NCBI RefSeq assembly: GCF_000218875.1
Contig: NC_015709.1
Coordinates: 1,240,001 to 1,304,000, forward strand
Length of the DNA: 64,000 bases
Direction: 5' to 3'
Source: Zymomonas mobilis subsp. pomaceae ATCC 29192
GTDB lineage: Bacteria; Pseudomonadota; Alphaproteobacteria; Sphingomonadales; Sphingomonadaceae
The position numbers and the translations under genes are program-made. The notes beneath the pieces were generated by a model. The model was not told where the DNA came from. It ran no database searches and saw nothing but the letters and a program-made list of their open reading frames with translations. Numbering within the stretch: position 1 is the stretch's first letter; every line of letters begins with the position of its first letter. Shown here one piece after another: positions 14,188-23,099 of the stretch.

Positions 14188-14973
14188 ATGTCTGTCTTGC
14201 ATGCCATTCAACCCCTTTATTCCTTGTCGGGACTTGTTATCGGCTTTCTTGTGGGCATGACAGGTGTGGGTGGTGGTTCCCTTATGACGCCGCTTTTAAT
14301 TCTGGTCTTTGGTATTCATCCGCAAACGGCTGTCGGCACTGATTTGCTCTATGCCTCTATTACAAAATCGGTAGGCACGGGTGTCCATGGATTTAAGAAA
14401 TCGGTGGATTGGCCTGTAGTTATGCGGTTATGCGCGGGGAGTGTTCCTGCTGCCGCGCTCAGCCTGTGGTTTCTCCATTCTCTAGGAATGCCTTCGGCAA
14501 CAACCTCGCGTATTATTTCAGTGACGCTTGGGATTGCTCTGTTACTTACCGCTCCAAGCGTATTATTTCGGGAAAAAATTAAAGCATGGGCTAGCCGTAA
14601 TACCCGACCCCTTTCGCCTACGACGACATCGCTTCTCACAGTTATTTTAGGGTTTGTGCTAGGCGTTTTGGTCTCTATTTCTTCTGTTGGTGCGGGCGCC
14701 ATCGGTGTAACCGTCCTTGTGTTACTTTATCCTTCTATCCCCACTTCACGGATCGTGGGTTCTGATATTGCCCATGCGGTGCCCTTAACGCTTATTGCGG
14801 GTTTTGGTCATTGGCTTATGGGGGCTGTCAACGTGCCGATGTTACTTTCTCTGCTTTTAGGCTCCATCCCCGGCATTATTCTTGGCAGTCTCTTTACGGG
14901 ACATGTCCGGGAAAGTGTCCAGAGATCTACGCTCGCTATCGTTCTTCTGGTTGTCGGTTTACGCCTTATCTAA
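14188..14973 (+). CDS. Sulfite exporter, TauE/SafE family
   Basis: The 261-residue membrane protein has about eight hydrophobic helices and the family repeats: GFLVGMTGVGGGSLMTPLL near the N-terminus and its second-half counterpart GVLVSISSVGAGAIGVTVL. TauE/SafE proteins export sulfite, sulfoacetate or other organosulfur anions across the inner membrane. It sits beside a CuyA-like cysteate sulfo-lyase, which would release sulfite, so export of sulfite is a sensible role here. GGAG at 14177-14180 is the ribosome site. Convergent with the racemase gene (22-base gap). Confidence 0.85.
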   Translation: MSVLHAIQPLYSLSGLVIGFLVGMTGVGGGSLMTPLLILVFGIHPQTAVGTDLLYASITKSVGTGVHGFKKSVDWPVVMRLCAGSVPAAALSLWFLHSLGMPSATTSRIISVTLGIALLLTAPSVLFREKIKAWASRNTRPLSPTTTSLLTVILGFVLGVLVSISSVGAGAIGVTVLVLLYPSIPTSRIVGSDIAHAVPLTLIAGFGHWLMGAVNVPMLLSLLLGSIPGIILGSLFTGHVRESVQRSTLAIVLLVVGLRLI

Positions 14974-14995
14974 ATCTAAAACCTTCTTATTAACC

Positions 14996-15724
14996 TTAAT
15001 AACGAGGGGTGCCATGCCCCTCCTCCAACCATAATTTGACACAGGCTTTCGCGAGCATTTCTGTCGGATCAATAGAGATTTCCAAAAAAGAAGAATGATG
15101 AGCCGCTAAAGCGAGTGGCACTTCAGTGCAGGCTAAAAGCAATTTTTCAGCGCCCCGCTTTACCAGCAAAGCCGCTAATTTTTCCAATAAATCGCCGGCT
15201 AAAGCCATCTCACCTTGTTTGACAGCATAACATCCTGCGACAAATAATTTATCCATCTCTTCCTCGGTAGGGAAAATAACCTCTATATCCGCCGCCCTTA
15301 TTTTTTGCTGATACCATCCCGCGGCTAATGTCCCATGGGTAGCGATTAATCCGATCTTTTGGGGATAAGGATAGGTTAGTAAAATCTGCGCCACAGTCTC
15401 ATCCACAATGTGCAGAATAGGCGCTTGGCTCGCTTCGGCCAAAGAGTCATACCAGTGATGCGCCGTATTGCAGGGGATCACAATATGGCTCACTTCCAGC
15501 TGATTGAGCTTTTTTATACCGTTCAGCAATTGCGGTAAGGGAGAATCTCCCTTACCCGCCAATGCCTTTTGCCGGTCTGCAATTTGAGGAACATTCCAAC
15601 TTACAACAGGCAGATGATCCTGATCCCTGTTAGCCGGTGTCGCTGCTATAATTTTTTGAAGAAGATCAAGGGTAGCCAACGGCCCCATGCCCCCCAACAC
15701 GCCAAAAAGCAGAGGCTTAACCAT
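14996..15724 (-). CDS. Aspartate/glutamate racemase family protein
   Basis: The 242-residue protein is a cofactor-free amino-acid racemase: GVLGGMGPLAT at the N-terminus and the two catalytic cysteines Cys85 (PCNTAHHW) and Cys199 (LACTEVPL). It overlaps the cysteate sulfo-lyase-like gene by 8 bases and is downstream of it, so the pair should be co-transcribed. A racemase next to an amino-acid sulfo-lyase suggests it could interconvert D and L forms of the lyase substrate (cysteate, cysteine sulfinate or cysteine). That link is inference; aspartate is the default family substrate. Confidence 0.85.
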   Translation of the reverse strand: MVKPLLFGVLGGMGPLATLDLLQKIIAATPANRDQDHLPVVSWNVPQIADRQKALAGKGDSPLPQLLNGIKKLNQLEVSHIVIPCNTAHHWYDSLAEASQAPILHIVDETVAQILLTYPYPQKIGLIATHGTLAAGWYQQKIRAADIEVIFPTEEEMDKLFVAGCYAVKQGEMALAGDLLEKLAALLVKRGAEKLLLACTEVPLALAAHHSSFLEISIDPTEMLAKACVKLWLEEGHGTPRY

Positions 15725-21640: not shown

Positions 21641-21826
21641 GCCCACAATTCAGCCATAGTTTGCAATAGGAACCGCTATTTTGAAGCCCATATCGACTTC
21701 AGAAAAGGGCCTTACAATATTTGGGCGGTATATGCCGCACAGACTTTGGATTTTGCCTTCACCCTTTATAAATCGCGCATTGATCACCGCGCATTTACCG
21801 GACGGTATAGCCGTTGCTGTTCATAA
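21641..21826 (+). pseudogene. Decayed IS6-family transposase fragment
   Basis: An open stretch without a start codon runs in one frame and ends with TAA at 21824-21826. Its translation contains FEAHIDFRKGPYNIWAVYA followed by QTLDFAFTLYKSR. This aligns with the DETY-x-KVRG-x-W-x-YLYRAVD block, then the T(I/L)DFxL segment, of IS6-type DDE transposases such as IS6100, with the catalytic Asp lost. The remaining N- and C-terminal parts and the terminal repeats are not found. It is a relic of about 60 codons lying between the dehydrogenase and the MFS gene. Confidence 0.45.
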
Positions 21827-21839
21827 GGATTTTTAATCC

Positions 21840-23099
21840 ATGCTCTCTTCTGCATCCCCCATTCCTGCATCCAAAATTAGCCTAGGCTTTAATCATCAAA
21901 AGTTGGTTATGATTATGCTCATTTTGATTGGCATTGCGGCTTATGCCGATCGGCAAATCATCGCTTTATTAAAACCTGTTTTAGATCGGGAATTCGGATG
22001 GAAACCCGCTGACTATGCGTTAATATCCTCTTATTCACAGGCCGCAACAGCCTTTAGTATGTTAGCCAGTGGCTGGATTGTGGATCGTTTAGGGGTCCGT
22101 GTTTCCCTTAGCGCAGGGGTCGCAGGGTGGAGCCTTTCAACGGCCTTTCACGGTCTCGTCAACAGTTTGAAAAGTTTTCTTCTTTTAAGAGTCAGTTTGG
22201 GCACCTTTGAAGGTATTTGTACCCCAGCAACTATGAAAGCTATTGCGCTACGGTTTGAAAGGAAACAGCGTGGACGGCTAGTCGGATTAATTCAGGCGGG
22301 GCATAATATCGCCGCCATGGTAACCCCCTTAATGGTTGCAGGATTATTTCCTTTTCTGGGATGGCGGGGCACCATCATTACCGTGGGATTATTAGGGTTA
22401 ATCTGTGCCGCTTTATGGTTTTTGATCCCTCAGCCTACCGACATATCAACTTCGGTCAAAAACAATGTATCCGTCTTAACGCCAGAAAAAAGTAAACGCT
22501 ATCGTCGCATCATAACCGGCTTTGCCTTGGGCAAATTCCTCACGGATTTCGTGCTTTGGTTCTTAATGTTTTGGTTACCGGATATTTTACATCGTCATTA
22601 TGGATTAAACACGGTTCAACTGGGTCTTCCCGTTGCCACTATTTACGGTATGGCGGCGATAGGTTGTCTGTTAGGGGGGTATATTCCGCCAATTTTAGCC
22701 CAAAAATGGCAGATACCATTAGAAGTAGCCAGACGGCGTTTCTTGGCTGTAACAGCGCTTTTAATCCTGCCAATTCCATGGTTATTGTATTCGAACAGCC
22801 TGCTTGTCGCTATCGCCTTATTTGGTATCGCCCTTGCCGCACATCAAGCTTTTGCTACCAATCTATTTGCTTTTGCGGCGGAATGGCTACCTTCTGATCG
22901 CGTGGGCAGGGCATCAGGTATTGGGGCTTTTTGTGGCAATATAAGTGGGGCGCTGGGTCTACGTCTTGTCGGTCATTTTGCTAATACGGTAGAAGCCATG
23001 TTACCTATTTTTCTCTACTGCTCTTTTGCTTTTATCTTGGGATGGTTAGCCCTTACTTTGATTGCCCCTTATCAATGGTTAGCAAAAAACAAAAAATAG
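21840..23099 (+). CDS. Major facilitator superfamily transporter
   Basis: The 419-residue inner-membrane protein has twelve predicted helices, the ADRQIIALLKP motif in helix 1 and the loop 2-3 signature GWIVDRLGVRVSLSAG, as in the anion:cation symporter group (ExuT/GarP-like, organic acid uptake). It starts at ATG 21840 after AAGGATTTTT. It lies 228 bases past the Ldh2-type gene with the transposase relic between them. A sugar acid, hydroxy acid or sulfonate substrate would fit this subfamily and the neighbours. Direction is presumed import. Confidence 0.85.
   Translation: MLSSASPIPASKISLGFNHQKLVMIMLILIGIAAYADRQIIALLKPVLDREFGWKPADYALISSYSQAATAFSMLASGWIVDRLGVRVSLSAGVAGWSLSTAFHGLVNSLKSFLLLRVSLGTFEGICTPATMKAIALRFERKQRGRLVGLIQAGHNIAAMVTPLMVAGLFPFLGWRGTIITVGLLGLICAALWFLIPQPTDISTSVKNNVSVLTPEKSKRYRRIITGFALGKFLTDFVLWFLMFWLPDILHRHYGLNTVQLGLPVATIYGMAAIGCLLGGYIPPILAQKWQIPLEVARRRFLAVTALLILPIPWLLYSNSLLVAIALFGIALAAHQAFATNLFAFAAEWLPSDRVGRASGIGAFCGNISGALGLRLVGHFANTVEAMLPIFLYCSFAFILGWLALTLIAPYQWLAKNKK

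Follow-up and report, generated by a model that had tools for sequence, protein, structure and literature searches.

A predicted sulfolactate and cysteate desulfonation module in Zymomonas mobilis subsp. pomaceae, with related genes on plasmid pZZM402 of strain ZM4

What is the substrate of a compact block of seven genes in Zymomonas mobilis subsp. pomaceae ATCC 29192? The block occupies positions 14188–23099 of the stretch of DNA analysed here (the window), 64,000 nucleotides of contig NC_015709.1 (positions 1,240,001 to 1,304,000) from an assembly of 2,061,413 bases in 3 contigs. A preliminary description had counted seven genes in nine kilobases; open reading frames (ORFs) and Pfam place all seven at those positions, each an intact ORF above the Pfam cut-off for its expected domain. 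The layout is directly visible. The minus-strand run consists of the genes for a TonB-dependent outer-membrane receptor (16770–19109; Pfam plug and barrel), a pyridoxal phosphate (PLP) enzyme (15717–16727) and a racemase (14996–15724), the last two overlapping by 8 bases, and the racemase gene ends tail to tail with the plus-strand gene for a TauE/SafE-family exporter (14188–14973; Pfam TauE domain). The plus-strand run encodes an iron-containing alcohol dehydrogenase (Fe-ADH; 19445–20572, starting at ATG 19445 with an alternative TTG at 19355), an Ldh2-family dehydrogenase (20607–21611) and a major facilitator superfamily (MFS) transporter (21840–23099; Pfam MFS_1). Both runs diverge from a gap of 335 bases (19110–19444), AT-rich on inspection of the sequence. 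From sulfolactate and cysteate the block probably yields pyruvate, ammonium and sulfite, and would serve mainly as a sulfur source.

The PLP enzyme, a predicted D-cysteate sulfo-lyase, scores 538.8 bits on the CuyA equivalog model NF052482 (cut-off 450), which places it directly in that curated family, as the preliminary description had suggested from its resemblance to CuyA. It falls below the cut-off on three D-cysteine desulfhydrase equivalog models (333.4 of 429, 313 of 469 and 307.8 of 610). As a control, E. coli DcyD reaches 405 on NF052482, which is below the cut-off, and 743.7 on its own model. A DcyD identity was rejected on these equivalog scores, on the DcyD control and on the tree described below, and the assignment to the CuyA family rather than the DcyD group stands as a reading of the sequence. 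K49, which we take to be the PLP lysine, and Q75, S76 and N77, presumably active-site residues, are fixed in CuyA-type sequences; they are common to DcyD and hence non-discriminating. In a set of 94 CuyA-type sequences (the window protein included), nine positions show at least 97% conservation of a residue that E. coli DcyD lacks, a lead drawn from a single DcyD sequence and from a set gathered by similarity to the window protein. Among the nine are Arg100 and Arg221, where DcyD has Pro and Ser; our guess is that these two arginines hold the sulfonate.

The racemase scores 261 bits on the CuyB equivalog model NF052483 (cut-off 190) and is thus a member of the CuyB family and a predicted cysteate racemase (L- to D-cysteate). 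Two cysteines, which we take to be the catalytic pair, lie in the motifs PCNTA (starting at residue 84) and ACTE (starting at 198). With these two families represented, the block resembles a cysteate module. CuyB is reported to convert L- and D-cysteate into each other, and CuyA to favour D-cysteate (PMC11382572). The racemase had been described as widening the stereochemistry of the pathway; a racemase is indeed present, and more than that, it would supply the D-cysteate that CuyA prefers.

The two dehydrogenases are less easily assigned. The sole model passed by Ldh2, a predicted (R)-sulfolactate dehydrogenase, is the HcxB/YbiC-type model NF007504 for malate, lactate and ureidoglycolate (386.4 bits, cut-off 336), and the protein is 38% identical to E. 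coli HcxB and 59–63% identical to the enterobacterial copies near CuyA. Its earlier assignment to ComC was rejected, as it reaches 207.9 of 500 on the L-sulfolactate dehydrogenase (ComC) model NF040650. Fe-ADH, a predicted (S)-sulfolactate dehydrogenase, carries the Pfam Fe-ADH domain and lies above the cut-off of no NCBIfam model; its best score is for glycerol dehydrogenase (234.2, cut-off 336), a second GldA model gives 191.3 of 700 and the HcxA model NF007880 gives 174.2 of 429. Its active-site motif PTIAATCAAW is that of E. coli HcxA, whereas E. coli GldA has PTIASTDAPC. The pattern TCA-A/G-W, in which Cys replaces the GldA Asp, is found in 54 of 55 Fe-ADH matches, the sole exception being E. 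coli GldA; these 55 include the window copy and some genomes twice, and a stricter first pattern gave 46. Glycerol specificity, implied when the enzyme was initially called GldA-like, was rejected because the GldA scores are below the cut-off and TCAAW stands in place of TDAPC. Residues D171, H254 and H271 lie within metal-ligand motifs and are presumably the ligands. "HcxA-like" is used here as a working label for the common active-site motif, not for family membership.

Across the phylum, sampled through 398 genomes, Fe-ADH at E 1e-60 is confined to 4, one of them the genome of the window; in the enterobacterial family, at E 1e-75, it occurs in 37 of 295. Among 39 fetched places, seven have CuyA, four have the same ABC (ATP-binding cassette) transporter genes at the edge of the stretch (L120, L122, L123 and L125), four lie elsewhere (L128–L131) and 24 form a group of 42–50% identity. 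Polyamine-type genes adjoin Fe-ADH in L128 and L131, the two of L128–L131 that were scanned. In the 42–50% group, 17 of the 24 loci (L135–L147, L149, L150, L152 and L158) carry GNAT and M20 genes, each with a flavin mononucleotide (FMN) monooxygenase gene, an argininosuccinate/adenylosuccinate-lyase-family gene or both, and seven do not have such a set. These sets resemble those of S-(2-succino)cysteine breakdown, with C4 products that include 2-oxo acids. Oxaloacetate has sulfopyruvate as its sulfonate analogue, so that a dehydrogenase of 2-oxo acids would suit either setting; we infer this function for Fe-ADH in both. In Edaphovirga cremea (L010:2630-3723) the Fe-ADH match is split between overlapping ORFs into two pieces, as a disrupted gene would be.

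The company of the dehydrogenases is conserved in enterobacteria. In the CuyA locus set, the best 80 of 243 loci (L008–L087), the nearest 22 (L008–L029; 74–78% identical) are enterobacterial save one titled Martelella alba. Ldh2 is present in 18 and Fe-ADH in 12 of these 22 within the fetched stretch, several of the others being cut at its edge; Ldh2 is missing from three Kosakonia loci and from one 3.4-kb contig. Most of the 22 loci also carry one or two SsuA/TauA-type ABC transporters. In Pectobacterium aroidearum (L013), one strand encodes Fe-ADH, a permease, an ATPase and a binding protein, and the other Ldh2, a binding protein, a permease, an ATPase, CuyA and CuyB; the best model is a sulfonate/taurine one for five of its six transporter proteins, with the SaoP permease ahead of SsuC in the sixth, all below the cut-off. 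The observation of the preliminary description is thereby confirmed, judged by recurrence in other genomes: CuyA, CuyB, Ldh2 and Fe-ADH occur together in enterobacteria, and three of these four, Ldh2 being the exception, on plasmid pZZM402 of Z. mobilis ZM4. TauE lies outside the recurring unit. As a separate observation, the Martelella alba record (L027) has an alphaproteobacterial name, and its CuyA, Fe-ADH and Ldh2 group with the enterobacterial ones; either the species label or the assembly could be in error.

The same clade appears in the CuyA tree (96 rows; built without matches shorter than 80% of the query length, copies of the window and loci above L119). The window and pZZM402 proteins pair with support 100/100, inside a 24-row clade with the 22 mostly enterobacterial loci (support 100/99), and 12 Sphingomonadaceae CuyA proteins, 47–54% identical, branch apart. 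CuyA is above the cut-off in one of four Zymomonas genomes searched, namely the window's own (genomes classed as the same genus; the four include it), and CuyB passes its own in 20 of the family's 298 genomes, that of the window among them. The stretches fetched from the other three Zymomonas genomes contain cysJIHGDNC and an ORF resembling window 24967–25677, which we label SprT-like, but not the module. Given the tree clade and the lack of CuyA above the cut-off in the other Zymomonas genomes, the CuyA gene was likely transferred from enterobacteria. Vertical descent within Sphingomonadaceae was rejected, as the 12 CuyA genes of that family are distant and on separate branches. For Fe-ADH and Ldh2 no origin is called because their trees are poorly resolved: the Ldh2 tree has long branches and the Fe-ADH tree has open forks, and neither was used for the transfer claim. 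Both were built without identical sequences, copies of the window and matches below 80% of the query length, which removed L010 and L132 from the Fe-ADH tree.

Plasmid pZZM402 (NC_013785.1, 33,915 bases), found by searching plasmids with the window proteins, carries a related module. Its relevant genes lie at 128–11361 and 29853–33853. Identities to the window proteins are 88% for CuyA, 74% for CuyB, 78% for Fe-ADH, 65% for the TonB receptor and 67% for a succinate-semialdehyde dehydrogenase (SSADH), and its two MFS proteins are 76.5% and 57% identical to that of the window. CuyA, CuyB and Fe-ADH thus occur together on two Zymomonas replicons, a chromosome-sized contig and a plasmid. The best solved match of the plasmid's PfkB kinase is sulfofructose kinase (375.4 bits, the next 179.9), and those of its Gfo/Idh/MocA protein are the GH188 sulfoquinovosidases 8qc2 and 8qc3, with which its RFPFLKK aligns, conserving the sulfonate-binding residues R166, L170 and K172 (PMC10755693). 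The plasmid isomerase has as its sole NCBIfam match the sulfoquinovose isomerase model SqvD/SftI NF048012, below the cut-off (288.2 of 700, E 1e-85), has its nearest relatives in Serratia and Hafnia (about 70%) and gave no match in a search of solved structures. Aldose epimerase and class II aldolase genes are also present. Together these genes look like a near-complete hybrid sulfo-Embden–Meyerhof–Parnas (sulfo-EMP) or sulfoquinovose pathway ending in CuyA and CuyB. The plasmid SSADH could make sulfolactate; the sulfolactaldehyde dehydrogenase GabD yields (S)-sulfolactate (PMC11382572). Without Fe-ADH the plasmid route would miss only the step from sulfolactate to sulfopyruvate and the transamination; Fe-ADH would supply the former.

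In the window genome no match was found to the isomerase (a search that had no genome known to match) or to the kinase, and GH188 matches reach only 24% (positive control G1421, 64%); this genome would thus have just the lower half of the pathway. For the plasmid's class II aldolase and epimerase, the search in this genome was confined to the window. An SSADH-family aldehyde dehydrogenase is encoded at 38266–39723 on the plus strand, above the cut-off of none of the listed NCBIfam models; it may be a sulfolactaldehyde dehydrogenase, a weak assignment made from its identity to the plasmid SSADH.

For uptake, the TonB receptor, predicted to take up sulfonate, is above the cut-off of no NCBIfam model among those listed. 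A relative at E 1e-240 was found in 4 of 200 sampled Acetobacteraceae-type genomes (a family name inferred from named relatives), and in all four loci (L159–L162) the receptor (56–62%) has as neighbours a GH188-like gene, which carries the RFPFLxK residues, and an MFS gene. Locus L160 also has a TauD-family dioxygenase gene, matched in none of the other three stretches, and is possibly a set for sulfosugar uptake and desulfonation. The MFS transporter is the predicted inner-membrane sulfonate carrier.

The sulfite released by CuyA would likely be taken up by CysJI. CysJ, CysI and CysH (25996–30262, plus strand; NCBIfam models above cut-off; assimilatory sulfite and 3′-phosphoadenosine 5′-phosphosulfate reduction) are conserved in the three other Zymomonas genomes, CysJ begins 2.9 kb beyond the MFS gene, and CysG, D, N and C (30553–34977) were named from a reading of the ORFs. 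TauE could export sulfite. It had been described as a sulfite exporter beside the pathway, and the TauE domain is there, but the gene is found in all four Zymomonas genomes searched, three of which have no CuyA above the cut-off (orthologues 79–82% identical; adjoining glmS in genome G002). TauE is therefore a resident Zymomonas gene, likely present before the module arrived, and a neighbour of the acquired unit, not part of it. For the same reason it was not regarded as the module's own sulfite exporter.

These data suggest a pathway in which we infer the substrates and their transport, the transcription and regulation of the genes and the direction in which the dehydrogenases work. Import of the sulfonate would fall to the TonB receptor and the MFS carrier. 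Sulfolactate, in both its enantiomers, would be oxidised by the HcxA-like and HcxB-like enzymes to sulfopyruvate, which a housekeeping aminotransferase encoded elsewhere would convert to L-cysteate. CuyB would racemise this to D-cysteate, and CuyA would cleave D-cysteate to pyruvate, ammonium and sulfite; the nearby CysJI would reduce the sulfite, and surplus would leave the cell, possibly via TauE. The related organosulfonate pathway of the preliminary description survives as a cysteate module by sequence, with its ComC, GldA, racemase and TauE details changed. More tentatively, and at slightly less than an even chance, we propose jointly that the HcxA-like enzymes are a new (S)-sulfolactate dehydrogenase family within the metal-dependent alcohol dehydrogenase superfamily and that Zymomonas holds the first one-cell route from sulfoquinovose to sulfite via sulfopyruvate and cysteate, complete on pZZM402 save the housekeeping aminotransferase and represented in the window genome by its lower half and a dehydrogenase for the second enantiomer.

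Several observations weigh against the sulfolactate and cysteate pathway. The three Kosakonia loci hold CuyA, CuyB and an ABC transporter with neither dehydrogenase in the stretch, and the other 58 CuyA loci (L030–L087, some of them on short contigs) lack Fe-ADH throughout and have an Ldh2 (42%) in three cases; because these loci mostly lack them, the dehydrogenases may serve another substrate. Fe-ADH in turn occurs without CuyA or the ABC genes in L128–L131 and in 23 of the 24 loci of the 42–50% group, and the remaining locus, L158, has the ABC genes and Ldh2 (54%) with no CuyA in the stretch. The shortfall of Ldh2 on the ComC model is shared by E. coli HcxB, which scores about equally (219.6), so this score lends no support for sulfolactate. 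No aminotransferase or regulator gene was seen in the block, no Ldh2 match was found on pZZM402, and the TonB/MFS pair, which in other genomes keeps company with GH188-like genes, stands here in a genome whose GH188 matches are all distant. A module for cysteate alone, in which CuyB and CuyA use imported cysteate and the dehydrogenases recycle the product (e.g. pyruvate to lactate) or act on other hydroxy acids, would agree with the Kosakonia loci, with the lack of Fe-ADH in the 58 loci and with the one malate/lactate/ureidoglycolate model that Ldh2 passes. We consider it unlikely, since it leaves aside the frequent presence of both dehydrogenases near CuyA in the enterobacterial clade, the retention of CuyA, CuyB and Fe-ADH on two Zymomonas replicons and the plasmid SSADH that could make sulfolactate.

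The glycerol dehydrogenase model that gives Fe-ADH its best, sub-threshold NCBIfam score, together with the SSADH-like genes in the window and on pZZM402, could also point to an enzyme that oxidises dihydroxypropanesulfonate (DHPS), a glycerol look-alike, or reduces sulfolactaldehyde, leaving Ldh2 as the only sulfolactate dehydrogenase. The Cys that replaces the GldA Asp in nearly all matches, as in HcxA, argues against this, and on pZZM402, which has no Ldh2 match, the sulfolactate step would then be missing; we judge this quite improbable. We give very little probability to CuyA as mainly a D-cysteine desulfhydrase and to the block as a unit for D-amino-acid detoxification or sulfide release. 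The nearest solved structure, 7ysk (576.5 bits), is deposited as D-cysteine desulfhydrase, the PLSDB table gives the plasmid copy that name, and CuyA can also act on D-cysteine (PMC10507020). The preliminary description had set a grouping with D-cysteine desulfhydrases beforehand as a test, and no such grouping was seen; TIGR01275, a broad subfamily model, is nevertheless passed by the window enzyme (327.9, cut-off 289.4) as it is by DcyD. The enzyme falls short of three D-cysteine desulfhydrase equivalog models and passes that of CuyA, its gene has a CuyB partner, sulfonate-type transporters adjoin an enterobacterial orthologue and apparent sulfoquinovose genes adjoin the plasmid copy, all of which make that function highly improbable. 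Oxidation of sulfolactate and cleavage of cysteate is thus the reading we prefer.

The promoters of both gene runs likely lie in the 335-base gap. Over 13900–23300, promoter-like matches number 16 against a shuffle mean of 21.8, i.e. no excess, and terminator matches are also not above shuffled sequence; an Rfam search of 7000–40000 gave no match. A search for an operator motif common to the window and pZZM402 intergenic regions found only short, mostly AT-rich 11-mers, and three forward frames of the 228-base gap between Ldh2 and the MFS gene showed no recognisable product. Around the block, the glmS–TauE interval (9594–13927) has a G+C content of 0.356 compared to 0.429 window-wide and may be a separate insertion. 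Directly after the MFS gene, 23265–24857 encodes an oleate hydratase (672.1 bits, cut-off 567); the regions retrieved from its three Zymomonas relatives gave no match to it. Further along, a long ORF at 36021–38168 has in its middle part about a dozen near-identical QQRDHHLHEL-type repeats (by eye), and two ORFs at 43906–45012 and 47283–49064 are apparently made of Sel1-like repeats (also by eye).

The module was likely acquired from plant-dwelling enterobacteria to win sulfur from plant sulfonates. If so, a much-studied ethanol producer would desulfonate plant sulfonates with a module passed from enterobacteria to an alphaproteobacterium, and candidate genes for the step from sulfolactate to sulfopyruvate would stand beside CuyA and CuyB in plant-associated enterobacteria. 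On pZZM402 the gene table in PLSDB hides the module behind general family names ("D-cysteine desulfhydrase", "amino acid racemase", "iron-containing alcohol dehydrogenase family protein"), and the plasmid would, if this is true, be a readily testable sulfoquinovose pathway. In the openly licensed literature searched, we found no paper joining Zymomonas with cysteate and none joining "sulfolactate dehydrogenase" with "iron-containing alcohol dehydrogenase"; in the part available, PMC12965863 mentions Zymomonas, sulfoquinovose and sulfolactate with unrelated content. The ZM4 route from sulfoquinovose to sulfite is apparently undescribed.

Compared with known systems, what would be new here is the predicted sulfolactate dehydrogenase family, the pairing of the two dehydrogenases and the uptake pair, beside the known CuyA/CuyB chemistry. 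Among the closest counterparts are the enterobacterial loci of Pectobacterium, Brenneria, Yersinia alsatica and Rouxiella, which hold CuyA, CuyB, Ldh2 and Fe-ADH together at 50–78% identity and differ in having SsuABC/TauABC-like importers in place of the TonB receptor and MFS transporter of the window. The SlcC/ComC racemisation system of Chromohalobacter and Paracoccus is set apart by its enzymes, as the window Ldh2 fails the ComC model, the other window enzyme is an Fe-ADH while SlcC belongs to another family, and the window lyase is CuyA, not SuyAB. The use of two stereo-opposite sulfolactate dehydrogenases in that system is the logic that we propose for the window (PMC9594981). In contrast to the window, pZZM402 has no Ldh2 match and adds GH188-like, sulfoquinovose-isomerase-like, sulfofructose-kinase-like and class II aldolase genes. 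In this it seems to resemble the hybrid sulfo-EMP cluster of a Yersiniaceae bacterium, with the same swap of isomerase and aldolase, where SqvD and SqiA stand in place of YihS and YihT, although the passage available on that cluster names no CuyA/CuyB ending (PMC9594981). Finally, the CuyA pathway of Ruegeria pomeroyi, for which the CuyB gene is given as unidentified, has HpsNOP and SlcD upstream where the window has HcxA-like and HcxB-like enzymes (PMC11382572), and it differs from the window's TonB and MFS uptake with resident TauE as a neighbouring exporter, but the curated CuyA and CuyB families and the predicted chemistry are the same.

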